This document shows, piece after piece, positions 9,470 to 49,452 of a stretch of 49,452 nucleotides of DNA. This DNA is from Lachnospiraceae bacterium (GTDB taxonomy: Bacteria; Bacillota; Clostridia; Lachnospirales; Lachnospiraceae), in the NCBI GenBank assembly GCA_017448245.1, contig JAFSLV010000008.1, positions 1-49,452 on the forward strand, written 5' to 3'. The position numbers and the translations under genes are program-made. Within the stretch, counting starts at the first letter, position 1; every line of letters begins with the position of its first letter. The notes beneath the pieces are model-generated. The model was given only the letters and a program-made list of their open reading frames with translations, searched no databases and was not told the origin of the DNA.

Positions 9470-9486
9470 GACGGTCCCCTTTGGCC
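9470..9486 (+). repeat. Partial copy of the CCGTCCCCTTTGGCC dispersed repeat
   Basis: GACGGTCCCCTTTGGCC fills the whole gap between the GH25 stop and the stop of the convergent GGDEF gene. It differs by one base from the core of the tandem repeat at 39971-40034 (CCGTCCCCTTTGGCC). It is a single shorter unit. Confidence 0.55.
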
Positions 9487-10964
9487 TATTTTTGTGATAT
9501 CTGGTCGTATTCCTGGGAAACGATGCCCGCGTTTGCGAGCGAGGGGTAGAAGTCTTCCGTCATGTGCACGATCTCGTAGTCGTTTTTCGTCCGGTTCTTG
9601 ACGTCGTAGAGCGCGCCGTCGGCGAGATAGATGAAATCATTGAAGCGCTGCTTGGGCAGCGGGACGCCGATACAGAAGCCCTGCGAGATCGTTACGTAGT
9701 CGGCGGCATCGGAGTAGGCATGCGGCATGTGCCGTTCCCTGACACGTTCCATGATCTCGCCGGCCATCTTTGTGATCCGCTGCGGGGTAAAGGATTCGCA
9801 GACCACGACAAATTCGTCGCCGCCGAAACGCGCACAGCAGATGTTTTCTTTTTCTTCGACCTCACGCAGGATATCGGCAAGCATGATGATGCATTCGTCG
9901 CCGGCCGTATGGCCGTAGTGGTCGTTGTATGGCTTGAAATAATCGATGTCCATGATGCCGACGGTCAGCGGCAGACCCTGCTTGAAGCAGCGTTCAAAGA
10001 TCTCCTCCGCACGACGGTTCAGGCCGAAGCGGTTGCTTAAGCCCGTGAGCTGGTCGGTCTCCGATTTGATGCGCAGCGCCTCGTTTTCGCGCAGCGTATC
10101 GGTCATGCGGTTGACACCGGAGATCAGCATGCCGATCTCGTCGGCAGAGCCCGTATTTTCGATCGGTTCCTCCGGAATGCTTCCTTCCTCGATCCTGCGG
10201 ATGTGGTCGGTGACCAGGGCGAGCGCGCCGGTCCAGCGGTTGACGATGAAGAGGATAAAGAAGACGGCAAGCGTGACCACGAGGATCACGGCAACGATCA
10301 GCGTCGTCATGACGCTGCGGACCTGCGCCTGCAGCTCCGAGATGTTGCGGCCGACGACGATCGCGCCGACGACCTCACCGTCCGCGTTTTTGAGCGTATT
10401 GTAGCGGCAATAGATCATGCCGCCCGCGACATTGGCTTCGCCGCCGTAGGTGTCCTCCGCATCGAGGATATCCGCAACCAGCACATCCATGTAGGTGCCG
10501 ACGATGGAGTTGCCATCGGGGTCCCGCGTGCTTCCCGCAACACGCAGGAAGTGTCCCTCCTTATAGCCTCTGGCGGTCGCGGTTGATTCGACAACGCCGA
10601 GTCCTTCATCGCCGACGCGTTTGAAGACATACGAAAAGGTACCCGTTTTTTCTTCATGTTCCAGGAAGGGTGCGAGATTGGCTTTTTCATGTGTGCCGTC
10701 GCCGACTAAGATATCACCGAGATAGATCCCGCCTTCCGGTCCGATATTCCATTCTCCTGAGCCGATGTGTGTTGCGTCGCTCAGGGCGATCAGATCCTCG
10801 ATGTAATTGATGTCCGCATTGAGCCGGTCCGCAATCAGGGTTTCTTCCATGCGGCTGACCATGGTGCGCGAAATGACATAGGTCGCGAGCACCAGGACAA
10901 CACCAAACACCAGGAAAAGAGCCGTGATCTTGAACCGGATACTGCGCCAGCCGGAAGTGTTCAT
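9486..10964 (-). CDS. Membrane-bound diguanylate cyclase (GGDEF) with extracytoplasmic sensor
   Basis: 492 residues from the chosen ATG. TM1 lies at about residues 11-31, followed by an extracytoplasmic region of roughly 190 residues that looks like a Cache-type sensor, then TM2 (LIVAVILVVTLAVFFILFIV), a HAMP-like segment and a GGDEF domain. The active-site motif is RFGGDEF, and DIDYFKPYNDHYGH is the usual GTP-binding stretch, so it should make cyclic di-GMP. The RxxD inhibitory site is not visible upstream of GGDEF. The frame can be extended 13 codons to a GTG, but an extended -10 box lies only 9 nt from the ATG at 10964, favouring that start. It runs opposite to all its neighbours. Confidence 0.88.
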   Translation of the reverse strand: MNTSGWRSIRFKITALFLVFGVVLVLATYVISRTMVSRMEETLIADRLNADINYIEDLIALSDATHIGSGEWNIGPEGGIYLGDILVGDGTHEKANLAPFLEHEEKTGTFSYVFKRVGDEGLGVVESTATARGYKEGHFLRVAGSTRDPDGNSIVGTYMDVLVADILDAEDTYGGEANVAGGMIYCRYNTLKNADGEVVGAIVVGRNISELQAQVRSVMTTLIVAVILVVTLAVFFILFIVNRWTGALALVTDHIRRIEEGSIPEEPIENTGSADEIGMLISGVNRMTDTLRENEALRIKSETDQLTGLSNRFGLNRRAEEIFERCFKQGLPLTVGIMDIDYFKPYNDHYGHTAGDECIIMLADILREVEEKENICCARFGGDEFVVVCESFTPQRITKMAGEIMERVRERHMPHAYSDAADYVTISQGFCIGVPLPKQRFNDFIYLADGALYDVKNRTKNDYEIVHMTEDFYPSLANAGIVSQEYDQISQK

Positions 10965-10973
10965 AGTGCTATG

Positions 10974-11002
10974 ATTATAACATATCCGGCAGACTTTGCC
11001 CA
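10974..11002 (-). promoter_or_regulatory. Extended -10 promoter of the GGDEF gene
   Basis: On the minus strand TGTTATAAT (10982 to 10974) is an extended -10 box, with TGGGCA (4 of 6) 17 bp upstream. Only 9 nt separate the -10 from the ATG at 10964, so the transcript would begin about 2-3 nt before the start codon. Confidence 0.65.
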
Positions 11003-11073
11003 CCGCACGTGATAGAGGCTTCTAACCGTTACGGCGCAGATACGGCAGCGGACAGGGTGTAAAGGAAAAACAC

Positions 11074-35459: not shown

Positions 35460-36329
35460 ATGAAAAAAATCATGGCAGCGGCACTGGCCGTTCTGATGCT
35501 GATCAGTCTGTATCCTTCGGTGGCCTGTGCCGCCGATGTCAACATCAACAATTTTGATTCCAAAAGATATGCGGACAATTATCCCGATCTGAAGGCGGCG
35601 TTTGGTTACGACCATTATGCGCTGTGGCATCACTATGTCAATAACGGCGCCGCGGAGCGGCGCGTCGTCTATACGCTCGGGGGCGAGGTCGGCACCTTTA
35701 CGGAGGTGGCGCTGTCGAGTGCGACCTTTGACTCGAGACGCTATGCCGATGATTATGCCGACCTGAAGGCGGCGTTCGGCTACGATCACAATGCGCTCTG
35801 GAATCATTACATCGTCTACGGCAGGACCGAGAACCGCAGGGTCTATACGATCGAAGGTCAGCCCATGCAGGGAGAGCCCGTGCGGGCAACGTTTGAGGCG
35901 CAGTTTGCGCAGCAGATGCTTTCGCTTGTCAACGCGCAGCGTTCGGCGGCGGGGATGAGCCCGCTGCAGCTGTCCGACGGTGCGATGGCGGCGGCACGCG
36001 TGCGGGGCGAGGATTTTCTGCGTTATTACGAGGCGGGTTATGTGCTCACCAATGTACCGCATATCCGGCCGGACGGGTCTTCTTTTACATCCGCGTACGC
36101 GGTGCGTTCTCCCTCCAAATACGGGGAAAATGTCATGGCGACCTACTGGTTCTCGTATGACGACGCGGCCTCTTTTACGGCGAGGGCCAACGCGTCCTTT
36201 GCGGCATCGAGCAGCCATTATCTGCAGATGATCAGCGGCAATTACAGCTACGCGGGCTTTTATCCCGCCTACATCCGCGAGTACGGTGCCGCGACACTGT
36301 ACGTGGTGATACAGGAGTATCATAACTAA
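35460..36329 (+). CDS. Secreted CAP-domain protein with two YPDL repeats
   Basis: 289 residues. Signal peptide (about 1-25, ending ACAAD). Two 37-residue repeats follow, FDSKRYADNYPDLKAAFGYD and FDSRRYADDYADLKAAFGYD with matching HHYVNNG/NHYIVYG ends, a repeat type frequent in Lachnospiraceae surface proteins. The C-terminal half is a CAP/SCP domain (MLSLVNAQRSAAGMSPLQLS, SKYGENVMATYW, YAGFYPAYI). CAP proteins are extracellular with varied roles; the repeats probably attach it to the cell surface, which is inference. The start at 35460 fits the signal peptide and follows AGGGGAG. Confidence 0.87.
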   Translation: MKKIMAAALAVLMLISLYPSVACAADVNINNFDSKRYADNYPDLKAAFGYDHYALWHHYVNNGAAERRVVYTLGGEVGTFTEVALSSATFDSRRYADDYADLKAAFGYDHNALWNHYIVYGRTENRRVYTIEGQPMQGEPVRATFEAQFAQQMLSLVNAQRSAAGMSPLQLSDGAMAAARVRGEDFLRYYEAGYVLTNVPHIRPDGSSFTSAYAVRSPSKYGENVMATYWFSYDDAASFTARANASFAASSSHYLQMISGNYSYAGFYPAYIREYGAATLYVVIQEYHN

Positions 36330-36334
36330 AGCCG

Positions 36335-36546
36335 GCGTCCTGCGGCGATGCGGATGCCGTGCTTGCACGGGCAGAGGCATCGACATAGGACGCGCAAAAG
36401 AGATGAGGAAAAAAGTGACGCGAAATGCTTTTCTGAGCGGCACGATTTCCGAATCTCTTTAGGATTTCGTAAGTTGCGTCAGCAACGGAGAAATCCGTCG
36501 GCTTTAGAGAGCTGCTTAAGCAGCGAAGCGACGCGCAGCCCTAAAG
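36335..36546 (+). other. Highly structured region between the CAP gene and carB
   Basis: Three hairpins occupy the gap. The first (36335-36393) has outer arms GCGTCCT/AGGACGC, a middle stem GATGCC/GGCATC and an alternative inner stem CCGTGC/GCACGG. The second (36462-36496) has GGATTTC/GAAATCC with GTTGC/GCAAC inside. The third (36502-36546) has CTTTAG/CTAAAG enclosing the 14-bp palindrome GCTGCTTAAGCAGC (36511-36524). No T-run or recognised PyrR site is visible. It could be a carB attenuator, a structured transcript or a REP-type element. Confidence 0.5.
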
Positions 36547-39500: not shown

Positions 39501-39998
39501 CTTGCGCAGACCGCCGGAGAAGCCTATCTCAAGGCGCAGGAGGCGGCGGGAGCCCATCTGCCTTCCGCGGGGACGGTACTGATCAGCGTCAACCGGAAGG
39601 ATAAGCCGGAAATGCCGCAGATCGCACAGATGTTCCATGAAAACGGGTTTCAACTGATGGCGACCGGTCGTACCGCCGACATGATCGAGGCGGCGGGCAT
39701 TCCCGTACAGCGCGTGCTCAAGCTGTATGAGGGGCGGCCCAATATCATCGATCATATGAAAAACGGCGAGATCGACCTGATCATCAATTCGCCGGTCGGC
39801 AAGATGAGCGCACATGACGACTCATATCTGCGCAAAAATGCGATCAAACTGGGAATTCCGTATCTGACGACGATTGCGGCTGCCAGAGCCGCAGCGGAAG
39901 GGATCCGCAATGCCGGACAGCACGGGACGGGAGTGCTGCAGTCACTGCAGGCCTGGCACGGGCAGATAAAACAAGCCACTGAGAACCGTCCCCTTTGA
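36567..39998 (+). CDS. carB: Carbamoyl-phosphate synthase large subunit
   Basis: 1143 residues from the ATG at 36567; the 73 codons open upstream cross the hairpin region and are not part of it. It makes carbamoyl phosphate for arginine and pyrimidine synthesis. The two homologous ATP-grasp halves begin [20 protein letters not shown] and [20 protein letters not shown] (about residue 617), and an MGS-type allosteric domain lies near 1000-1143. The link between the halves has an extra stretch of about 60-65 residues (roughly 540-615), and the usual VDTCAAEF segment is replaced by [10 protein letters not shown]. The last seven residues (ATENRPL) are encoded by a dispersed repeat. No carA is adjacent. 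Confidence 0.94.
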   Translation: [1143 protein letters not shown]

Positions 39999-40034
39999 CC
40001 GGAAACAAGCCACTGAGAACCGTCCCCTTTGGCC
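39971..40034 (+). repeat. Tandem 30-bp repeat ACAAGCCACTGAGAACCGTC...
   Basis: Two 30-bp copies (39971-40000 and 40005-40034) differ at one base and are joined by GGAA. The first contains the carB stop codon. The complement of this element occurs at 20133-20185 and a single unit at 9470-9486. Similar CCGTCCCC repeats are familiar from clostridial genomes; a REP-like origin is likely but not shown here. Confidence 0.85.
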
Positions 40035-40126: not shown

Positions 40127-40152
40127 TTCCGCAACGGGCAAAAAAGATTCAG

Positions 40153-40257
40153 ATCTGACGGAACGCCCGCAACATCGAGCCAAGGATTTAATGAACGAAG
40201 GGATTCGTACACGTAGGTACCATCCCGATCGCACATGAATCGACGGCTCGTTTTTTA
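40153..40257 (+). promoter_or_regulatory. Candidate cis-regulatory RNA with terminator, copy 1
   Basis: A 31-nt block (40154-40184), beginning ATCTGACGGAACGCCCGCAA, is identical to one in the leader at 44977-45007. GATCT (40153-40157) can pair with GGATT (40185-40189, wobble included) around it. CGAGCC (40177-40182), inside the block, pairs with GGCTCG (40246-40251), which is followed by TTTTTT: an intrinsic terminator enclosing two smaller hairpins. The two pairings compete. No known riboswitch class was recognised. The gene starts 80 nt later. Confidence 0.7.
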
Positions 40258-40337: not shown

Positions 40338-43300
40338 ATGAGACTCTTACTCAAAAACCAGGCAACAAGAAAAAAGGTCAGAACCAGAATCGCGGCATTT
40401 ATGGTGGCGCTTTTGGTTCTTATCTCCACGGTAGGAAGTAATTTCTACGCGATGAAAGCCTATGCGGCGGAAGAAGGCGTGGCGGAGGAGGTGCAGCTGG
40501 CGCAGGAGGCGGCGGCCGAGCCCGCACAGGAAGCGCCCGCACAGGAAGAAGCACCGGCCGAGCCCGCGCAGGAAGCACCCGTACAGGAAGAAGCAGTAGC
40601 GGAACCCGTACAGGAAGCTCCCGCACAGGAGGAGACGCCTGCCCCCGTACAGGAAGCACAGCCCTCACAGCCCGAGACCCCCGCAGCCCCCGCGGAAGAA
40701 ATCACCCTGCCCGAAACCATAGAAGAAGTACCCGCACAGGAAGCGGAAGAGCAGACAGAAGAAGCAGCAGAAGCGGAAAAAACAGAAGAAACGGCGCAGG
40801 AAGCGCCCGCGGAAGAGGAAAAAGCATATCCCGCAGCCACCTGGACCGGTGAAACCGCGGATGTGCGCGTGAGCGCCTCCGTCGGCGAGGGCGTCTTCCC
40901 GGAAGGCACGGAGATGAGGGTGTCTCCGGTTTCCGCACAGGCGGCGATCAGCGCGGCGCAGAAGATGACGGGTGAGAGCACCGAGATCGTGGACGCGGTC
41001 GCGGTGGACATCACCTTCCATTACGACGGAAAAGAGATCCAGCCGCAGGGCGCGGTGAATGTGCAGCTTTTCGCGAAGCGCGCGGTGCAGGGCGAAAGCC
41101 ACAACGCCGTCACGATCGACGACCACGGCAACGCGGCACCGGTGGCGGATGCCTCCTCCCGCACGAGCGCATTTGATACGGATCATTTCACGGTCTATGG
41201 TATCGTCGGCGGCAACTACACGGATGAGGATGTGCAGGAGCATGTCCGCCACACCTATATCTTCTATGTGGACGACGTCAAGGTCGACGAGGTCATCGTG
41301 CATAACGGCGACGCGTTCACGGTGCCTGCGAACCCGGCAGGAGACGCAAAGCACAAATTTGCCGGCTGGTATGAGATTGAAACGGATGCGTCCGGCACAG
41401 CGGCAAAGGAAGGTGACGCATGGAAGCTGACGACAGAGGCGGTCATTTCGGCTGCTTCTTACGACAAGGTGGCGGATGACGAAACGGAGGACAGGATCAT
41501 TTATGTCGCCGCGAAATTCGACACGCAGTATACGATTACGATTTATACGAATGAGGATCAAAAGGTTGTCTTTGACACCGACACCGGAGAAGATGAGGAA
41601 ACTATAGAGCTGACCTCTCCGGATGAAGCGATGAAAGCGGGCTTCCCCGTTCCTGCCGGTGAAACATTGACCGGATGGAAGAATGTTGACCCGGATGGTG
41701 CGCAGGTGAGTGCCGATAATACAATCAAAATTGACGGCGACGACATCGAGCTCGTGCCGGTCTTTGCGGCCGCCCACACGGTGAGCTTCGATAAAGTAAA
41801 GACGCTGTTTGAGGATTATCAGGTGCCGGACCAGCGCGTACTGGACGGTGAGAAAGTAACGGCTCCCGATGTGTTCAAGGTTGGCAGCGTGTACAGGGGC
41901 TATCGGTTTGACGGCTGGTATGATAAGAATCCGGATGAATATGACGACGCGAAAGAATTTAATTTTGACGATAAGCTGACCACGGAGAGTCCGGATGCGT
42001 TCACCCTCTACGCCAAGTGGACGCCGCAGGAAGTGCAGATCAAAGTTGAGATCTGGCTGGAAAACGCCAATGACACCGGCTATACGCGGCATGCTACGGA
42101 TGACACGTTCAAGGTCGAGGCGGACGGAACGATTCCGCTGGATGAGATTCTGAAAGTATATCATGACAATAAGTACCGGACACCCAAGGACCCCGGCTAC
42201 TTCCATCTGAACGGGACGAAGAGTTATGAGCAGAATCCGGATGCCACGGAGCAGCTGCTTTCCGACAACCGTCCCGCGGTGGAGATTTCCGACAGCAGGG
42301 GCGAAGTCGCGAAGTATTCCGTGGCGGAGGTCAATGGCGGCAGCTACGATGCCGCGGCCAATCCCGACGGCACGACGGTGGTGCGCATCAACTACAGCCG
42401 CGACACCTACAACCTGAAATTCGCGTTTTACAATACCGGCGGATTCATCACGGACGCTAACGGCAGCCAGGTTTTGAATGAGGACGGAAAAAAGCTGGCG
42501 CCCGAGGGGTATGCAAATGTCGAGCTTCCGACACTCCGGGTCAAGTACGGCCAACACCTGTACAAGCGCACGCATTTTTACAGCGACTGCGATGGCGCAA
42601 TGTTTGACGCTTATCTTAAGACGCAGCCCTGGTTCTTTGAAAAGTCCGGTATGGACACCGGCGGACAGACCGTGTTTGACGAGTCCAACCAGAACTATCC
42701 GATCAGACCGGCCAGCGATATCGGTGATGGAGGGGAGCTCGGTGTCAGGGTCTATCTCAACGGCGACCAGAAGAACTATCCGATCGAAAGCCGCTTCTAC
42801 GACGAGGCGTGGACGGCGGAGCAGGTCGTCAATGGAGAAGCCGGCGCGTATTCTTCCGAGACAAGAACGGTCGTCTATCTGACGGATCATCCGCATGAGT
42901 ATACGATCGGCGCAAGCGGCGGCGGTTACCGGCTGGTGCAGATCACAAACTTTGGGTCCGTCCAGCTGAACAAAGCGGGCGATTATCAGGCGCTTAACGG
43001 GCAGGTGATTGCAAACGGAACCCACAAATTCAAGTGGATCAACGGCAACAACAGAAATGAGGAATGCGAGCCGATCATCCTGCACTATATGCCGGTCAGC
43101 TACACGATCACCTTTAAGCAGACGCGGGGCGGCACGGTCAATGGCGGACGCCTGGTGGATGGTGACACCAAGGTGAATGACATCGTACTGGGACCCTTCT
43201 TCTATGACCAGGAGATCAATATTGCGGCGCTGATGGCGGCGAACGAACGCTTTGCAAATGACGGCTGGACGACCTTAAAGGACGCTAACGGCGTGGTCTA

Positions 43301-44876
43301 CAGCGCAAAGGACGGCTGGCAGGGCAATGTGGATGAAGAAGGCAATTTCCCTGTCAGGATGCCCGCACAGAACCTTGTCTTCTATAAAGAGTGGGAATGT
43401 GACACCTACACGGTGACCTTTGACTGGAGCCGCGACGGACTGCCTGACGGGACCGAAAAGGTCTTTACGGAGGAAAACATCGCCTACGGCGACGCCGTGA
43501 AGAATCCGGCGGATGCAGACAAAGCCGCCGCGAGCAGGGAAGGCTATGTGCTGCTGGGCTGGAAGGCCTTTGAAAGAAACGCTGACGGTACGAAGGGTGC
43601 TCCGATCAGCGATGCCTTCTACAGCTTCAATACGCCGGTGACGAAAAACCTCTATATCGAAGCGCAGTGGGCGTCCGTGAACGGATACAACGGATACAAC
43701 GTCGTGTATGATAAAGGAGCGCATGGCACAGTCAGCGGTGCGGATGAATACGGAAAGAAAGAGGATCCGCAGAAGTATGATTCCAAAGCCAATGCACCCG
43801 TGAAATATATCGCGACCCCGGAGGAAGGATGGGTATTCACCGGCTGGGCGATCGGCAAGGCGGACGAAAATTCGACGCTCTACGGCTCCGGCAGTGTGTT
43901 CTACTATACCGAAGCAGCCGATGCGGCGGACGGGGCGGAAGACAGCGTCCTTACGCTCATCGCGCAGTATGAAAAAATCGAGCGCCTGACGGATGTGACC
44001 TATCATACGAATTTCCCGGAGGGAATCGGACAGACCGAGCGGTACCTCAAATTAGAGAAGGTTGCGGTATGGAATGACGGGTTCATCGTTGCCGTACCGG
44101 ATACGGAGCTCGGATTCCCGCGCAGGGTTACTGTCGGAGACAGCATCTTCGAGTTTGTGGCCTGGACGAATACGGAAGGCGAGAAGATCTTTACGGATGA
44201 CAGTAACCGTGAGTACTTCGATCCCGGAGAGACTGCCGCGGCCGGCATCAAGGACAACCATCTCTACGCCACCTGGCGCGTGATTGAGCTGACGACGCTG
44301 ACGGTGAATAAGGTCTGGAGCGATGCGTTCAATGCGGACGGCTCACGTCCCGCTTCCGTGACGATCCGCGTGATGGCGGGTGGCGTGGAAGCAGCCCGCG
44401 TGACACTGTCCGCGGAGAACAGCTGGACGCATACCTTTACGGGTCTGGATGCAAGCAAAACCTATACGGTAGAGGAAGTGGACGTACCTGCGGGCTACAC
44501 GGTTTCGTACAGCGGAAATGCACAGGACGGCTTCACGGTGACCAATGCGCATACGCCCGTGACACCGCCGACACCGCCGACCCCGGTACCCCCGACACCG
44601 GTACCTCCGACGCCGGTACCTCCGACGCCGGTACCTCCGATTCCCGAGGGAGAACTTCCGGACGATGATCCGGACGATGTGCTCCCGCCGATCGCGGAAG
44701 CGGACGCCCCGGCCGTCCTCGGAGTGCTGCGCAGGACGGATGCCGATGCCACGGTATTCGGTGCAAGACGCGGCAAGACCGGTGAATCGAGAGCGGCTAC
44801 GGCCGATGCGCTGGCCTTCTTATTCGGCAGTCTCGCGCTGACGGCCCTGATCAAGGGAAAGAAAAAGGAAGGCTGA
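40338..44876 (+). CDS. Large surface protein with InlB-type repeats and a Cna-B domain (paralogue 1)
   Basis: 1512 residues. Signal peptide of about 43 residues beginning MRLLLKNQATRKKVRTRI. A Glu/Ala/Pro/Gln-rich stretch (about 50-165) is followed by a domain shared with paralogue 2 (from YPAATWTGETADVRVSASVG to FTVYGIVGG). Then come several Listeria-Bacteroides (InlB B/Flg_new) repeats marked by FxGWY...LYAKW, a Cna-B domain at about 1318-1402 (LTVNKVWSDAFNADGSRP), a PVPPT repeat stalk, and a C-terminal hydrophobic segment with KGKKKEG tail. There is no LPXTG; FGARRGKTGES stands in its place. Likely an adhesin. A GAAGGAGG site precedes the ATG. Confidence 0.87.
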   Translation: MRLLLKNQATRKKVRTRIAAFMVALLVLISTVGSNFYAMKAYAAEEGVAEEVQLAQEAAAEPAQEAPAQEEAPAEPAQEAPVQEEAVAEPVQEAPAQEETPAPVQEAQPSQPETPAAPAEEITLPETIEEVPAQEAEEQTEEAAEAEKTEETAQEAPAEEEKAYPAATWTGETADVRVSASVGEGVFPEGTEMRVSPVSAQAAISAAQKMTGESTEIVDAVAVDITFHYDGKEIQPQGAVNVQLFAKRAVQGESHNAVTIDDHGNAAPVADASSRTSAFDTDHFTVYGIVGGNYTDEDVQEHVRHTYIFYVDDVKVDEVIVHNGDAFTVPANPAGDAKHKFAGWYEIETDASGTAAKEGDAWKLTTEAVISAASYDKVADDETEDRIIYVAAKFDTQYTITIYTNEDQKVVFDTDTGEDEETIELTSPDEAMKAGFPVPAGETLTGWKNVDPDGAQVSADNTIKIDGDDIELVPVFAAAHTVSFDKVKTLFEDYQVPDQRVLDGEKVTAPDVFKVGSVYRGYRFDGWYDKNPDEYDDAKEFNFDDKLTTESPDAFTLYAKWTPQEVQIKVEIWLENANDTGYTRHATDDTFKVEADGTIPLDEILKVYHDNKYRTPKDPGYFHLNGTKSYEQNPDATEQLLSDNRPAVEISDSRGEVAKYSVAEVNGGSYDAAANPDGTTVVRINYSRDTYNLKFAFYNTGGFITDANGSQVLNEDGKKLAPEGYANVELPTLRVKYGQHLYKRTHFYSDCDGAMFDAYLKTQPWFFEKSGMDTGGQTVFDESNQNYPIRPASDIGDGGELGVRVYLNGDQKNYPIESRFYDEAWTAEQVVNGEAGAYSSETRTVVYLTDHPHEYTIGASGGGYRLVQITNFGSVQLNKAGDYQALNGQVIANGTHKFKWINGNNRNEECEPIILHYMPVSYTITFKQTRGGTVNGGRLVDGDTKVNDIVLGPFFYDQEINIAALMAANERFANDGWTTLKDANGVVYSAKDGWQGNVDEEGNFPVRMPAQNLVFYKEWECDTYTVTFDWSRDGLPDGTEKVFTEENIAYGDAVKNPADADKAAASREGYVLLGWKAFERNADGTKGAPISDAFYSFNTPVTKNLYIEAQWASVNGYNGYNVVYDKGAHGTVSGADEYGKKEDPQKYDSKANAPVKYIATPEEGWVFTGWAIGKADENSTLYGSGSVFYYTEAADAADGAEDSVLTLIAQYEKIERLTDVTYHTNFPEGIGQTERYLKLEKVAVWNDGFIVAVPDTELGFPRRVTVGDSIFEFVAWTNTEGEKIFTDDSNREYFDPGETAAAGIKDNHLYATWRVIELTTLTVNKVWSDAFNADGSRPASVTIRVMAGGVEAARVTLSAENSWTHTFTGLDASKTYTVEEVDVPAGYTVSYSGNAQDGFTVTNAHTPVTPPTPPTPVPPTPVPPTPVPPTPVPPIPEGELPDDDPDDVLPPIAEADAPAVLGVLRRTDADATVFGARRGKTGESRAATADALAFLFGSLALTALIKGKKKEG
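44577..44636 (+). repeat. 15-bp tandem repeat encoding the PVPPT stalk
   Basis: Four 15-bp units of the type CCGACGCCGGTACCT encode the proline-rich wall-spanning stalk before the C-terminal anchor. Confidence 0.8.
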
Positions 44877-44915: not shown

Positions 44916-44944
44916 TTTACAACAGATCGTTTTTATGATAAAAT
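44916..44944 (+). promoter_or_regulatory. Promoter of the second surface-protein gene
   Basis: TTTACA (44916-44921), a 17-bp spacer and TGA-TAAAAT (-10 at 44939-44944, extended). The transcript would start near 44951, about 25 nt before the conserved leader block and 214 nt before the gene. Confidence 0.8.
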
Positions 44945-44975: not shown

Positions 44976-45087
44976 AATCTGACGGAACGCCCGCAACATC
45001 GAGCCAAAGATTCGTGAAAGCGGGAGATTCGACGGAACTTGAGTCTCCCGTTTTGTTACATGAATGTAGTTTGGCTCGGTTTTTTTT
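44976..45087 (+). promoter_or_regulatory. Candidate cis-regulatory RNA with terminator, copy 2
   Basis: AATCT (44976-44980) pairs with AGATT (45008-45012) around the 27-nt conserved loop. CGAGCCAAA (45000-45008) pairs with TTTGGCTCG (45070-45078), followed by eight T residues within 45080-45087. Between the terminator arms are two hairpins, CGGGAGA/TCTCCCG (45021-45050) and TACAT/ATGTA (45057-45068). The arrangement matches copy 1, although the inner hairpins differ completely in sequence. Confidence 0.75.
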
Positions 45088-45164: not shown

Positions 45165-48100
45165 ATGAGACGGTTGTTGAGAAACCAGGCGGTAAGAAAA
45201 AAGATCAGGACAAGAATCGGCGCGGGGCTGATCGCCTTTCTGGTGATCTGTTCCACCATCGGTTCCAACTTTTTGTCGCTGAAAACGTATGCGGCGGAGG
45301 AGGGACTGTTTGAAGAAGCCCCGCCCGCGGAAGAGCCGCCTGCACAGGAGGACCCGCCCGCAGAAGAGCCGCCCGCGGAAGCTCCGCCCGCGGAAGAGCC
45401 GCCCGCACAGGCACCGGCGGAAGCCGCGCCCGCGGAAACACCCGCGGAGCAGGCGCCCGTGAATGTGCGCTTTGAATATCGTGCCTCGGAGGGCGGTACG
45501 GTCACGTTGCCCGCGGAAGACATCAATCCCGCAGCGGTTGCCGTTCAGGGTTCGCTGGCTGTTGCACAGGAAGGATATACCTTTGCATACTGGGCCGATG
45601 AAAACGGCGTTGCGGTTTTCTATCAGGCGCATTTCATTCCCGCTTTTGAAGGCAGCCCGCGAATCTTTACCGCGTTCTTTAATAAAGTAGAAACGCCTGC
45701 ACCCGCGCAGGAGGAGACACCCGCTCAGCCTGAAGGGGAGACGCCTGCGGATAACGGGCAGGAAGAGACGGCTGTAACAGAGGAAGAGAAGACAGAAGAG
45801 ACGAAGGAATCCGCGGAGGAGACTGCGGAAACCAAAGAAGCATCCGAAGAGGAGGAAGCGGAGGAAGAGAAGGAAGAGGCGAAAGAGGAAGAGGCGGAAG
45901 AAGAGGAAGAAACGGAAGAGGAAGCGGCAGAGGAAGAAACAAAGTATCCCGCCGCGACCTGGACGGGCGAGACGGGCGATGTGAGAGTCTACGCCTCCGT
46001 CGGCGAGGGCGTCTTCCCGGAAGGCACCTCGATGCAGCTGGCGGCGGTATCTGCCTCGAGCGCGATCGCCGCGGCACAGGAGACTGCGGAGGAAGGAAAG
46101 ACGGTCGTCGACGCGGTTGCGGTCGACATCACCTTCCATTATGAAGGCGCGGAGATCCAGCCGGAGGGCCCGGTCTCTGTCCGCATCAGCGCAAAGCGTT
46201 CCGTCGAGGGCGAGTCCCACGAGGCGGTCACGATCGACGGTAGCGGTTCCGCGTCGGTTGTGGGCGGTGCCAGCGACCGCACGGGCGCTTTTGAAACCAA
46301 TCATTTCACGGTCTATGCCATCGTCGGCGAGAGCTATGAGGACGAGGTGGCGGCACATGCCAGATATACATACGAGTTTTATGTGGACGGTGTCCTGATC
46401 GATACGCAGATCGTCAAGGACGGGGAAACGCTGACGGTGCCTGCGGACCCGGCGGGCGACGGTAAAAAGGTCTTTGCCGGCTGGTTTACCGGGGACGAAG
46501 CAGGTGAGCGTGCACAGGAAGTGACAGCAGGCCCGGTCACCATCCCCGCGAAGGATGCGGAGGGCAATCCGACGCAGGATCAGACCATCGCGGTCCATGC
46601 GGCCTTTGATGACGGTTATGAGGTGATCTTTTATACCGATCCGGTAAAGAGTGCGATCCTGACCACCGTGACGGGCGCCGCGCCCGATACGGTATCGACC
46701 GCGGGAATCGAGCCCGCGCAAAAGGACGACTTTGTCTTTATCGGATGGAAGAAAGACGGCGCGGAGGATACGGACATTGTCGGGAGCGCCGGCGCCGATG
46801 ACGCGGACGAAGAAGGCAACGTACATCTCGTGCCGGTATACGGCGAAGAGGTGACGGTGTATTTCGACAGCCTCGGCGGATCGGACGTGGAGCCTGAGAT
46901 TGCGGGAAAGGGAGAACTCATGGATCCTCCCGCGAATCCCGTGCGCGAGGGCTATTCCTTTGACGGATGGTACGAGGACTATACGCCCGAGACGGAGGGA
47001 AGTGAGGCCGTATATGGCGGACAGTGGTTTGCGTCAGGTGCGCAGGAGGTCAACGGGACTGCCACGCTGTATGCGAAGTGGAAGGCGGAAAAAGCGACCT
47101 ATACCGTGCAGGTGCGCAAGGAGCACGCCAATGATGACGGATATGATGTCGTGGAAACAAAGGAGCTTACGGGCGACGTGGACGGGGTCATCCCGATGCA
47201 GGACATCATCAGCAGCTATGCCGGGAGATCTTATGAGGGCTTCCATCTCAACGGCACGGGTGCAAAACAAAGTGATGCCAAGTTTAAGGACAACGGCGCC
47301 TCCATCGAGATCCTCGACGGCAGCGGCAATATCGTCGGCGCATATGATGTCATGAGCGGCTGGGTCAGCGGAAGCGAGGATACCGCAAGGATCGCCGCGG
47401 ACGGTTCGACGACCGTGCGCGTCAATTACAGCCGCCATACCTATACGTTGTATTTCCGCCTGGATATCAATATCAGTACAAAAGACAACGGCAATTTTGC
47501 GGGCACTCCGTACGGATTGAACCTGGCAAACGGCGTGTCGCCGGCCTATGATGCCGAGGGCAATGCGGTCACGTCGATTGCCGGTCAGACCACCGTCATC
47601 AAATACGGGGAGAACATGTACCAGAGGGCCTATCTGCAGAACCCCGCAGTGCAGGCATTTATGGGAACGCCCGGCTTCAAGTTTAATGCCTACTGGCGCG
47701 ATATCGGCGGACAGACGGTTTTTGACAGCACCAACCAGGGACTCAATTTCTATCCGAAGAGCGGCATCGAGGACGGCGGCGGAGCGGTGTGCGTGATCAC
47801 GCTGGCCCAGAACCAGAAGCCGTATACCTTCCGCAGTGTCTTTTATGAGCAGGACGGTCAGACGGTGGCGTTTGAAACGATCAATACCATCGGATATGAT
47901 ATCTATCACGCGCACACGTTCCAGACCGGCGCGGTGATTGCGGGCATTGACAGCAGCGGCACAAACAGGGGTAAGTACCGCCTGGTCAACGTGACGGGAT
48001 ACCGCGAGGTGGCTGACGGCGGGGATCCGCAAGCGAACGGATCGCATAAATACCGGTTTGTGATCGGCCCCGACGGCAACCCGGAGGAGCTGGTACTGCA

Positions 48101-49452
48101 CTATGTCCCTGTCGCCTACAGTGTGCGCTTCTATCACAATGACGGCACGGGAGCGAAAACCGACGGTGTCGTGGGAGGCAGCACCGACATCTATCCCGGG
48201 GCGGACATCAGCGCCATCTGTGCTTCTTCTCTGCCGGATTACGTGGTCAATGAAAAGACCTGCGTCAGGGAGGGCAGACTCTATGTGTTTCAGGGCTGGT
48301 ACGACAATGCGGCCTGTGCCGGCGATCCCTTCAATTTTGCGGGAGCCGTCATGCCGCTTGAAAATCTCAGCTTTTATGCCAAGTGGGCACCGGCCAATGT
48401 CGCGGTTACCTTCCATCCGATGAACGGGGCGGAGGGCAATGAGGATATCAATACGGAAACAAAGGCCCTGACGCCGAGCGGCAAGGCACCGTGGCGCGGC
48501 GCGCCTGCGGCCGCGGGCGTAAGGCAGGGACAGACCTTCCTGTACTGGGCAAAGGACAGCGAGGACGGTGAAAGATTTAACTTCAATGAAAAGCTGACGG
48601 CGGACACGCACCTGTATGCGGTATGGGCCGAACCCGAAGTGCCTTATACGGTACGCTACGAGACGGACGCGCGCGGCAGACTCCCCGCAGGTCTGACAGA
48701 CATGACCACGGATGCCGACGGCAACAGCTACGGCACGGATCCCAGGTCCTATGACGCGGGCGCGTATGCGGCGGTTTTCGGGCAGGCCATACCGGAGACG
48801 GGCTATATCTTCACCGGCTGGCAGATCAAAGACAGTGCGGATGTGACGGTCACATCCGGCACCTTCAGGATAAGCGACGGCAATCCGGCGGCAGAGTCGC
48901 ATGAGATTACGCTGGTTGCGCAGTACGCACCGGTGGAAAAGAAGACGACCTTTGTCACCTTCCATTCCAACTATCCCGCCGGTCCCGCGGATACGTCCGT
49001 AAAGAAGGGCGTGGAATTGACGGGCGACGTGGAGAAAGGAACACTCACCGTCAACGGTGATTATGTGATTGATGATGATGCGCAGAGCCTTGGATTTGCG
49101 CCCGAGCAGCCGGCAAACGGCACCTATACGTTTATCGGCTGGTCGACGGATCCCGCAGGCGGCAATGTCTTTGCGACCGAAGAGGAAGCGATGGCCGCGG
49201 CGGAACTGTATGTGAGGGGAGAGACGGCGGTGGCCGGCATGGAGGAAAATCATCTCTATGCGGTCTGGAAGCTGGAAGTCATAGAGGCCCCGCGTTCGAA
49301 CCCGCCCGGTCCCGACCCGGGCCCCGGATCCGATCCGACGCCTGCGCCCGCGGATCCGGAGACACCTCCCGTCGGCGGCGGCGATGAGTCCGATGTGCCG
49401 GAGATGCCGGTAGCGGCAATCCTCGAGGAAGAGGAAGAGGAGGAAGAGGAGG
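45165..49452 (+). CDS. Large surface protein, paralogue 2 (3' end beyond the window)
   Basis: At least 1429 residues, open to the window edge. The N-terminus MRRLLRNQAVRKKIRTRI and signal peptide resemble paralogue 1. Next come a PPAEE-rich stretch, a region with Glu/Lys-rich low complexity (about 205-260), the shared domain from YPAATWTGETGDVRVYASVG, and at least five InlB-type repeats (FDGWYEDY...LYAKWKAE, FQGWYDNA...FYAKWAP, FLYWAKDS...LYAVWAEP). A Pro/Asp-rich stalk and a Glu run end the visible part. A strong AAGGAGGTG site precedes the ATG. Presumably an adhesin; the anchor is not visible. Confidence 0.86.
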   Translation, partial: MRRLLRNQAVRKKIRTRIGAGLIAFLVICSTIGSNFLSLKTYAAEEGLFEEAPPAEEPPAQEDPPAEEPPAEAPPAEEPPAQAPAEAAPAETPAEQAPVNVRFEYRASEGGTVTLPAEDINPAAVAVQGSLAVAQEGYTFAYWADENGVAVFYQAHFIPAFEGSPRIFTAFFNKVETPAPAQEETPAQPEGETPADNGQEETAVTEEEKTEETKESAEETAETKEASEEEEAEEEKEEAKEEEAEEEEETEEEAAEEETKYPAATWTGETGDVRVYASVGEGVFPEGTSMQLAAVSASSAIAAAQETAEEGKTVVDAVAVDITFHYEGAEIQPEGPVSVRISAKRSVEGESHEAVTIDGSGSASVVGGASDRTGAFETNHFTVYAIVGESYEDEVAAHARYTYEFYVDGVLIDTQIVKDGETLTVPADPAGDGKKVFAGWFTGDEAGERAQEVTAGPVTIPAKDAEGNPTQDQTIAVHAAFDDGYEVIFYTDPVKSAILTTVTGAAPDTVSTAGIEPAQKDDFVFIGWKKDGAEDTDIVGSAGADDADEEGNVHLVPVYGEEVTVYFDSLGGSDVEPEIAGKGELMDPPANPVREGYSFDGWYEDYTPETEGSEAVYGGQWFASGAQEVNGTATLYAKWKAEKATYTVQVRKEHANDDGYDVVETKELTGDVDGVIPMQDIISSYAGRSYEGFHLNGTGAKQSDAKFKDNGASIEILDGSGNIVGAYDVMSGWVSGSEDTARIAADGSTTVRVNYSRHTYTLYFRLDINISTKDNGNFAGTPYGLNLANGVSPAYDAEGNAVTSIAGQTTVIKYGENMYQRAYLQNPAVQAFMGTPGFKFNAYWRDIGGQTVFDSTNQGLNFYPKSGIEDGGGAVCVITLAQNQKPYTFRSVFYEQDGQTVAFETINTIGYDIYHAHTFQTGAVIAGIDSSGTNRGKYRLVNVTGYREVADGGDPQANGSHKYRFVIGPDGNPEELVLHYVPVAYSVRFYHNDGTGAKTDGVVGGSTDIYPGADISAICASSLPDYVVNEKTCVREGRLYVFQGWYDNAACAGDPFNFAGAVMPLENLSFYAKWAPANVAVTFHPMNGAEGNEDINTETKALTPSGKAPWRGAPAAAGVRQGQTFLYWAKDSEDGERFNFNEKLTADTHLYAVWAEPEVPYTVRYETDARGRLPAGLTDMTTDADGNSYGTDPRSYDAGAYAAVFGQAIPETGYIFTGWQIKDSADVTVTSGTFRISDGNPAAESHEITLVAQYAPVEKKTTFVTFHSNYPAGPADTSVKKGVELTGDVEKGTLTVNGDYVIDDDAQSLGFAPEQPANGTYTFIGWSTDPAGGNVFATEEEAMAAAELYVRGETAVAGMEENHLYAVWKLEVIEAPRSNPPGPDPGPGSDPTPAPADPETPPVGGGDESDVPEMPVAAILEEEEEEEEE

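Follow-up and report, generated by a model that had tools for sequence, protein, structure and literature searches.

A candidate leader RNA of about 44 nt, proposed to control terminators ahead of giant surface-protein genes in Lachnospiraceae

In B. thuringiensis, the Bc2 RNA, a c-di-GMP-I riboswitch, precedes the collagen adhesion gene cap; according to the available part of the report, a terminator forms by default and c-di-GMP brings about an antiterminator that turns the adhesin on (PMC4933901). In Clostridioides difficile, riboswitches are described, in the portion of the source at hand, as prominent in the c-di-GMP control of putative colonisation factors (PMC6200980). Protein-bound leaders are represented by LoaP, an RNA-binding paralog of NusG, which binds a small leader hairpin upstream of a terminator, as set out in the accessible sections of PMC12691694. 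The leader RNA analysed here occurs twice in a 49,452-nt stretch of DNA from a Lachnospiraceae bacterium (GCA_017448245.1, contig JAFSLV010000008.1), referred to below as the window, ahead of two adjacent genes for giant surface proteins. An undescribed on/off switch is proposed because the stem of this RNA has been kept by paired changes in numerous gut and rumen species and competes with a terminator. On comparative sequence grounds, it appears to represent an undescribed family of leader RNAs, about 44 nt long and of the terminator-controlling-switch type, and is no more than a candidate riboswitch.

The original prediction started from a 31-nt block shared by the two leaders. This identity held: the sequence ATCTGACGGAACGCCCGCAACATCGAGCCAA is letter-for-letter the same in copy 1 and copy 2 and occupies 40153-40183 and 44977-45007, respectively (all window features are on the + strand unless noted); the second interval had been given correctly and the first, 40154-40184, one base too far right. 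The leaders are otherwise diverged, as had been claimed, with all common 9-mers of the approximately 300-nt upstream regions falling within the block. By a rough estimate, two 300-nt regions would share 31 nt by chance with odds of about 1e-14, and a BLAST search with 131 nt of leader against the genome of the window returned only the two places in the window (E<=0.001), the second being 36 nt at 97%. A CGAGCC near the end of the block serves as the terminator 5' arm in both leaders. In copy 1 the terminator stem-loop spans 40176-40250 (basal arms 40176-40181 and 40245-40250; folding z -3.3) and is followed by a run of six U at 40251-40256. In copy 2 a stem-loop with an inner hairpin spans 45000-45078 (basal arms 45000-45008 and 45070-45078; z -6.0), with a run of eight U at 45080-45087; both U-runs were read in the sequence. 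From U-run to ATG there are 81 nt in copy 1 and 77 nt in copy 2, in agreement with the intrinsic terminator predicted about 80 nt before the gene. Since the hairpin loops are long, neither leader terminator was listed by a simple scan restricted to loops of 3-8 nt. A sigma-70-like promoter, TTTACA-17-TAAAAT, is present upstream of copy 2 at 44916-44944 as a consensus match only, and a scan for sigma-70-like promoters upstream of copy 1 found none. The start of the block 20-25 nt after the transcript start therefore stays a mere prediction for copy 1, which has no promoter to count from; in copy 2 the block begins 32 nt past the end of the -10 box.

The two genes encode surface protein 1 (40338-44876; 1512 aa, signal-peptide-like N-terminus, List_Bact_rpt (Flg_new) and Cna_B) and surface protein 2 (45165-49452; at least 1429 aa, running past the window end, Flg_new and Flg_new_2 repeats). 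Both have a signal-peptide-like N-terminus and List_Bact_rpt / InlB-B-type repeats, and they are adjacent paralogs with 59% identity over the N-terminal 61 aa. Direct repeats of CCACTGAGAACCGTCCCC are found at 39973-40032, where the gene preceding copy 1 ends, and likewise upstream of another surface protein on contig C44 (L027).

Relatives of the two leaders were collected stepwise. A 27-mer with up to three mismatches (<=3) was found only in the genome of the window among 145 genomes. The leader of a same-genus surface-protein homologue (L011) contains CTCAGGGAACGCCCGGTATTTTGAGCCCTG, and covariance model R1 was composed of this leader and both window copies. Over 79 genus genomes R1 gave matches in 20 (E<=1), of which 15 were accepted on reading the sequences and five (G071, G027, G041, G069 and G030) were rejected in the same way. 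Model R2, built from 18 instances, matched 92 of 397 family genomes at E<=0.1; among the places down to E 4.5e-4, the core lay in a sensible leader in 11 genomes and not in three others (L085, L086 and L087). The fraction of 11/397 is a lower bound, as it covers the places down to E 4.5e-4 and many weaker R2 places lie at E 0.001-0.1. Over 392 order genomes, counted together whatever their family, model R3 matched 8 genomes at E<=0.002, all in the family of the window. An exact pattern scan of genome contigs, with the core fixed and the flanks and linker free, found 55 stretches. The 40 that were kept carry Lachnospiraceae, Butyrivibrio, Oribacterium or Lacrimispora labels in 38 cases, a Saccharofermentans label in one and an uncultured bacterium label in one. 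The other 15 were dropped on taxon or context, 14 as unrelated taxa and one as a Family XIII contig without leader context (L124, L128, L130, L133, L138, L140, L144, L146, L151, L156, L162, L165, L168, L170 and L176), and a GC-rich viral pattern match (L212) was judged to be chance. A pattern search of the collected loci, minus the 15, yielded 57 instances that are distinct in sequence and nearly all from Lachnospiraceae; L167 is counted among them although it has no following gene and may be chance. Because the search pattern prescribed the core, the invariance that the core shows in alignment A4 is partly by construction. On one contig (C21 of G368, 23-45 kb; L104 and L105) the leader RNA occurs four times in 21 kb, every copy with a large surface protein of its own behind it, one of them PilZ-first; two of the four have a linker of only 4 nt (TAAT).

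Alignment of the 57 sequences revealed a conserved loop, GGAACGCCCG-N4..8-RAGCC, closed by a stem, P1, in which GG and the 5' flank pair with CC and the 3' flank, the flanks being variable. The inner five pairs of P1 are 83.5% paired, compared to 7-64% if the strands are slid by 1-3 columns, and their covariation score of 0.414, against 0.152 in shuffles, was reached by none of 500. The pair that adjoins GG/CC (12-36) is AU in 19 sequences, GC in 17, CG in 7, GU in 5, UG in 2, UA in 1 and other in 6. Across eight P1 pairs, 70.8% are paired versus 22-54% when slid, and the first 17 distinct sequences, which predate the pattern scan, gave the same answer (74.3% versus 18-49%). Two of the five P1 measures were uninformative, the number of pairs with two-sided changes being equalled in 486-491 of 500 shuffles; the outer P1 pairs (columns 7-10) are unpaired in 23-32 of 57 sequences, and RNAalifold alone gave a weak consensus (-1.5 kcal/mol, 4 pairs). 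Inside the loop, a 2-bp step (C17-G31, G18-Y29) fits most sequences with one-sided changes only, C17-G31 failing in 8/57, and the linker from AACGCCCG to RAG measures 7 nt in 51/57, 8 nt in 3, 4 nt in 2 and 5 nt in 1. The pairing and covariation of P1 thus describe a conserved structured element in the 5' leader, as is required of a riboswitch aptamer. The claim of selection as RNA rather than mere duplication is upheld by this covarying stem and by the presence of the 57 instances before unrelated protein families. A reading as promoter or DNA operator was discarded, given that P1 covaries as RNA and that the spacing from the -10 box is variable (about 17 nt in L061 and about 40 nt in copy 2, read by eye). 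In the PilZ-first Butyrivibrio loci L059, L060 and L061, a near-perfect inverted repeat, GCGTTCC...GGAACGC, lies just upstream of the core and spans the -10 box TATAAT and the leader start; it may be an operator or chance.

In copy 1, the 5' strand of P1 (AGATCT, the 3-nt internal-loop side GAC, and GG) lies at 40151-40161 and pairs with 40180-40189, on the covariation of the 57 sequences. This 3' strand (CC, AA, GGATTT), placed by covariation and folding, overlaps the terminator 5' arm. The conserved core, GG-AACGCCCG-CAACATC-GAG-CC, a putative effector-binding loop, spans 40160-40181 (alignments A3 and A4). The corresponding elements of copy 2, placed on the same evidence, are a 5' strand (AATCT, GAC, GG) at 44976-44985, a 3' strand (CC, AA, AGATT) at 45004-45012, both by covariation and folding, and a core at 44984-45005. 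P1 contains a 3x2 internal loop (GAC/AA) in both window copies, so that the first pair outside GG/CC is mismatched there; due to this loop, simple complementarity missed the antiterminator of the window copies, and it was the relatives that revealed the stem. Folded alone, the window aptamers form P1, an AA/AG internal loop and the 2-bp step at -5.2 (copy 1) and -4.7 (copy 2) kcal/mol. With the terminator formed, the folds of the complete leaders reach -33.6 and -47.7 kcal/mol, respectively, and an unaided leader should therefore terminate.

A U-run is found no more than 125 nt downstream of the motif in 53/57 instances. In 32/57, including both window copies, the core/CC segment pairs with the arm that abuts the U-run, under a test demanding a minimum helix length of 6 bp and no fewer than three G-C pairs. 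When the bases downstream were shuffled 200 times, the test was passed by 2.9 instances on average and by 8 at most; of the real instances, 25/57 failed it. Two registers occur. In the first, which includes the window copies (linker/RAG/CC side), the 5' arm consists of RAGCC and P1' at an offset of 14-19; in the second, the 5' arm is the core CGCCCG itself at an offset of 4-6 (e.g., L075, L107, L129 and L135). Five register-2 passes (L081, L116, L155, L164 and L172) coincide with the beginning of the coding sequence in a single protein family (KKARFWA...), where conservation of the protein may account for them; 27 remain without them. An automatic fold classification (25 in the window register, 12 + 6 with the 5' arm in or before the core, 8 downstream and 6 with none) was noisy and has been superseded by this test. 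Since P1 and the core overlap the terminator arm in either register, formation of P1 and core excludes the terminator, and the excess of 32/57 over a shuffled mean of 2.9 is what an expression platform mutually exclusive with its aptamer would give. The family, its stem P1 and the overlap of P1/core with the terminator arm (window copies, 32/57 in total) stand firm at the level of sequence. The prediction of an unrecognised conserved leader RNA thus survives in an altered form: rather than forming a stand-alone ligand site with a terminator behind it, the block supplies the loop and some of the strand positions of an antiterminator stem in competition with the terminator.

These features suggest, with a probability of roughly 0.7, that the leader RNA is a cis-acting transcriptional ON switch of the terminator/antiterminator kind, the effector being left unspecified. 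We take the P1 form to be the active one and infer that it has to be bound by some effector. In such a switch, the polymerase would make the small hairpin first, comprising P1, the AA/AG internal loop, the 2-bp step and the CCCG loop. Binding of the effector would hold the P1/core hairpin and so bar the CC strand or the core from the terminator, and with the terminator blocked the giant surface-protein gene would be transcribed. Without effector, the far stronger terminator would form, and the leader would be off by default. In one subgroup, whose leaders lack a terminator, the core may instead act on the ribosome site or the start region. An ATG is found about 43 nt past the motif, with no leader terminator between, in L114/L125, L116/L157, L134, L155, L164, L172 and L175. 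Possible translational control is suggested at these loci by CUCC/GGAG-type base pairs and by complementarity between the core and the first codons.

Analysis of the genes behind the leader RNA found, in 46/57 instances, a frame of 250 aa or more whose N-terminus is hydrophobic, mostly encoding giant surface proteins; this test, applied to whichever frame was longest among those with a start no further than 520 nt away, is crude and used no signal-peptide predictor. Among the remaining 11, six are cut by contig or locus ends (L057, L078, L111, L141, L172 and L175). L080 has a GTG-start frame, invisible to an ATG-only search, and the surface-protein frame of L152 breaks just past a run of nine G, through an assembly error or a phase-variable tract. 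L129 precedes a 140-aa HAD-like protein under the Pfam cut-off, L075/L154 a membrane protein cut at the contig end, and L167 has no frame behind the motif. The L154 membrane protein matched no Pfam family at E<=0.01 and has a 21%-identical relative in G212 that overlaps an HD_5 protein. The domains of the led proteins vary (List_Bact_rpt, Flg_new_2, Cna_B, BspA-type LRR, CHB_HEX_C_1 with DUF6273, or none). In 5/57 instances (L059, L060, L061, L079 and L104 at 16223) a PilZ-like protein of about 105 aa comes first and the surface protein next; of three such proteins scanned, two pass the Pfam cut-off and that of L061 falls just under it (22.2 versus 22.5). Copies before unrelated genes, which the original prediction had set as a test against gene duplication, were looked for and found ahead of several unrelated protein families and in other genera.

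A direct repeat, YATGAT-N6-YATGAT, was observed in 16/19 surface-protein loci without the leader RNA (L007-L010, L012, L013, L015, L017, L018, L020 and L023-L028) and in 0/5 loci with it. It occurs once in 276 kb of other DNA and in 3/57 leader-RNA instances, the PilZ-first Butyrivibrio loci L059, L060 and L061; in the window's own genome it stands before a third surface protein (L027). The repeat looks like an operator standing in for the leader RNA in relatives, as a second device. A frame of about 70 aa (type GTFVVKIEYCQNETWQGKVVWAEENRTERFRS) lies between the YATGAT box and the surface-protein gene in L008, L009, L012 and L025.

Comparison with known RNA families agreed with the prediction that the leaders match no known riboswitch class, as the covariance models for RF01051, RF01786, T-box, SAM and preQ1 were unmatched at gathering score. 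Rfam 15 at gathering thresholds returned only Clostridiales-1 for the whole window, elsewhere than in the leaders (RF01699, 95 bits; 36327-36506); this RNA overlaps the first ATG of a 1216-aa carbamoyl-phosphate synthase frame, whose true start is therefore probably further downstream. Searching the two window leaders against Rfam at E<=10 gave at most four sub-threshold hits and none above threshold. L061 gave 8 sub-threshold hits, mostly to eukaryotic microRNA models (best, mir-304, 22.3 bits versus a threshold of 99, E 0.012); such hits look like hairpin noise, and an Rfam scan of L061, L064 and L107 gave no hit at the motif. RF01051 has one match in the window's own genome, elsewhere (G000:C10), and an Rfam scan of 17 of the 19 surface-protein loci without the motif, meant to find c-di-GMP-I in their leaders, gave no hit. 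No description of the leader RNA was found among the open-licence papers listed, a fraction of those matched, and Butyrivibrio and Lachnospiraceae go unmentioned in the available main text of two RNA-discovery papers (PMC11109978 and PMC8632094).

Several explanations compete for what the conserved hairpin does. A recent tandem duplication that copied leader and gene together, leaving the block as a functionless relic, would fit the two genes being adjacent paralogs; however, outside the block the two leaders are no longer recognisably similar, and copies of the core lie ahead of unrelated protein families in other genera. Because the led genes come from several unrelated families, this explanation falls, and its probability is negligible. 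A trans-acting small RNA with the sequence CGGGCGUUCC could instead base-pair with the core, whose ten near-invariant bases are mostly unpaired in the P1 form, yet such a target would need neither the two-sided covariation of P1 nor a fixed RAGCC side, and we regard this as very unlikely. Better placed, if still improbable on balance, is a binding site for an antiterminator protein, in the manner of the LicT/BglG RAT or for the operon-encoded PilZ protein, in place of a small-molecule site. Protein-bound antiterminators have the same plan, a short hairpin over the terminator 5' arm; a longer invariant loop would be expected of a metabolite aptamer, and PilZ is the first gene in 5/57 instances. 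Against this, no common regulator gene was noticed in the first downstream frames read. A PilZ homologue (query L061, E<=1e-5) is present in 19/24 motif genomes, is missing in five including the window's own, and also occurs in 4/12 genomes without an accepted motif, a distribution on which PilZ was rejected as an obligate RNA-binding partner.

Recruitment of LoaP for processive antitermination of long genes would suit the position of the leader RNA, and the genome of the window has three LoaP-like genes beyond the housekeeping NusG (154.9, 124.0 and 118.2 bits; curated cut-off 125). In four of five motif genomes tested, however (G061, G042, G063 and G062), there is a single NusG-family match (E<=0.001), beside rplK. 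LoaP hairpins are, moreover, of the UNCG type in the part of the source available (PMC12691694), which the conserved loop AACGCCCG... is not when compared by eye, and the stretches around the LoaP genes of the window's genome (L047, L048 and L049) contain no exact GGAACGCCCG and three 9/10 matches. LoaP was accordingly rejected for the whole family, four motif genomes having only the housekeeping NusG, and its involvement is highly improbable; as both LoaP and PilZ are patchy across motif genomes, neither is a general partner. The three LoaP-like paralogs lie at G000:C16:32384-32878 and G000:C1:57891-58978. One LoaP-like gene lies between glycosyltransferase-like and nucleotide-sugar-dehydrogenase-like genes, and two lie in tandem ahead of a membrane protein resembling a polysaccharide chain-length regulator, all named by eye.

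Within the reading as an ON switch, gene context and analogy make a small molecule, c-di-GMP first, the likeliest effector, ahead of a binding protein; for c-di-GMP this is a tentative choice that falls well short of even odds. It is possible, if doubtful, that the leader RNA forms a third natural class of c-di-GMP riboswitch, of about 44 nt, that would turn giant adhesin genes on by antitermination; in the genomes sampled, such a class would be restricted to Lachnospiraceae and perhaps their near relatives. The context counted for c-di-GMP includes the adhesin-like genes and PilZ in some operons, besides the GGDEF genes, c-di-GMP-I riboswitches and HD_5 gene described below. The original prediction had pointed to a diguanylate cyclase in the window as a hint toward a second-messenger ligand. 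This gene exists (9486-11003, - strand; GGDEF, sCache and HAMP) but carries almost no weight as a hint, being 29 kb off in a genome with 31 GGDEF matches. GGDEF genes are present in 24/24 motif genomes and do not discriminate, as 127/150 sampled family genomes carry them too. c-di-GMP-I riboswitches occur in only 17/24 motif genomes; if the ligand is c-di-GMP, a single signal would be read by at least two RNA folds within these cells. Of 20 c-di-GMP-I loci viewed at short range, six start with the same coiled-coil and signal-peptidase genes, and the remainder lie ahead of other gene kinds, without pilus-operon-like starts. Three of the six, chosen for their first genes, lead pilus operons and carry a signal peptidase, giant FctA protein, SpaA pilin and sortase (L213), a 2212-aa SpaA/Cna_B/LPXTG protein (L214) and a SpaA pilin (L215). 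If these riboswitches work as named, c-di-GMP therefore governs one class of surface fibre there. In G212, an HD_5 gene, of a family that we take to be HD-GYP-like, lies about 500 nt behind a motif-led gene, probably on a separate transcript. A DUF3800-XI RNA (RF02975, 56.7 bits; L107:4086-4132, minus strand) was observed with a motif-led surface gene on one side and an HD_5 gene on the other.

Giant surface proteins decide the attachment of commensal and rumen Lachnospiraceae, and a common switch would provide one handle on many adhesins of bacteria for which genetic tools are scarce. A small leader-switch family without an Rfam entry would, at about 44 nt, be easy to synthesise and test directly. 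Among known systems, the RAT antiterminators of LicT and SacY (BglG type) are also short hairpins with a 3' strand that overlaps the terminator 5' arm, as in the leader RNA, but their loop is not known to share its sequence. The dfn-mln leaders bound by LoaP likewise have, in the sections of the source available, a small hairpin upstream of a leader terminator and a very long transcript (PMC12691694); by contrast, that hairpin is of the UNCG type and bound by a NusG paralog that is absent from 4/5 tested motif genomes, and the published scheme sets a spacer between the hairpin and the terminator, as two distinct elements (Fig. 2 legend of PMC12691694). The c-di-GMP-I and c-di-GMP-II riboswitches of C. 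difficile likewise belong to Clostridia, and the leader RNA has no Rfam match to either. Bc2 differs in having a c-di-GMP-I aptamer (RF01051, 87 model positions), compared to a leader RNA of about 44 nt with no RF01051 match, yet as far as Bc2 is described in the available text, the likeness would extend to an adhesin-gene leader that is repressed by default and whose antiterminator form is the ON state.
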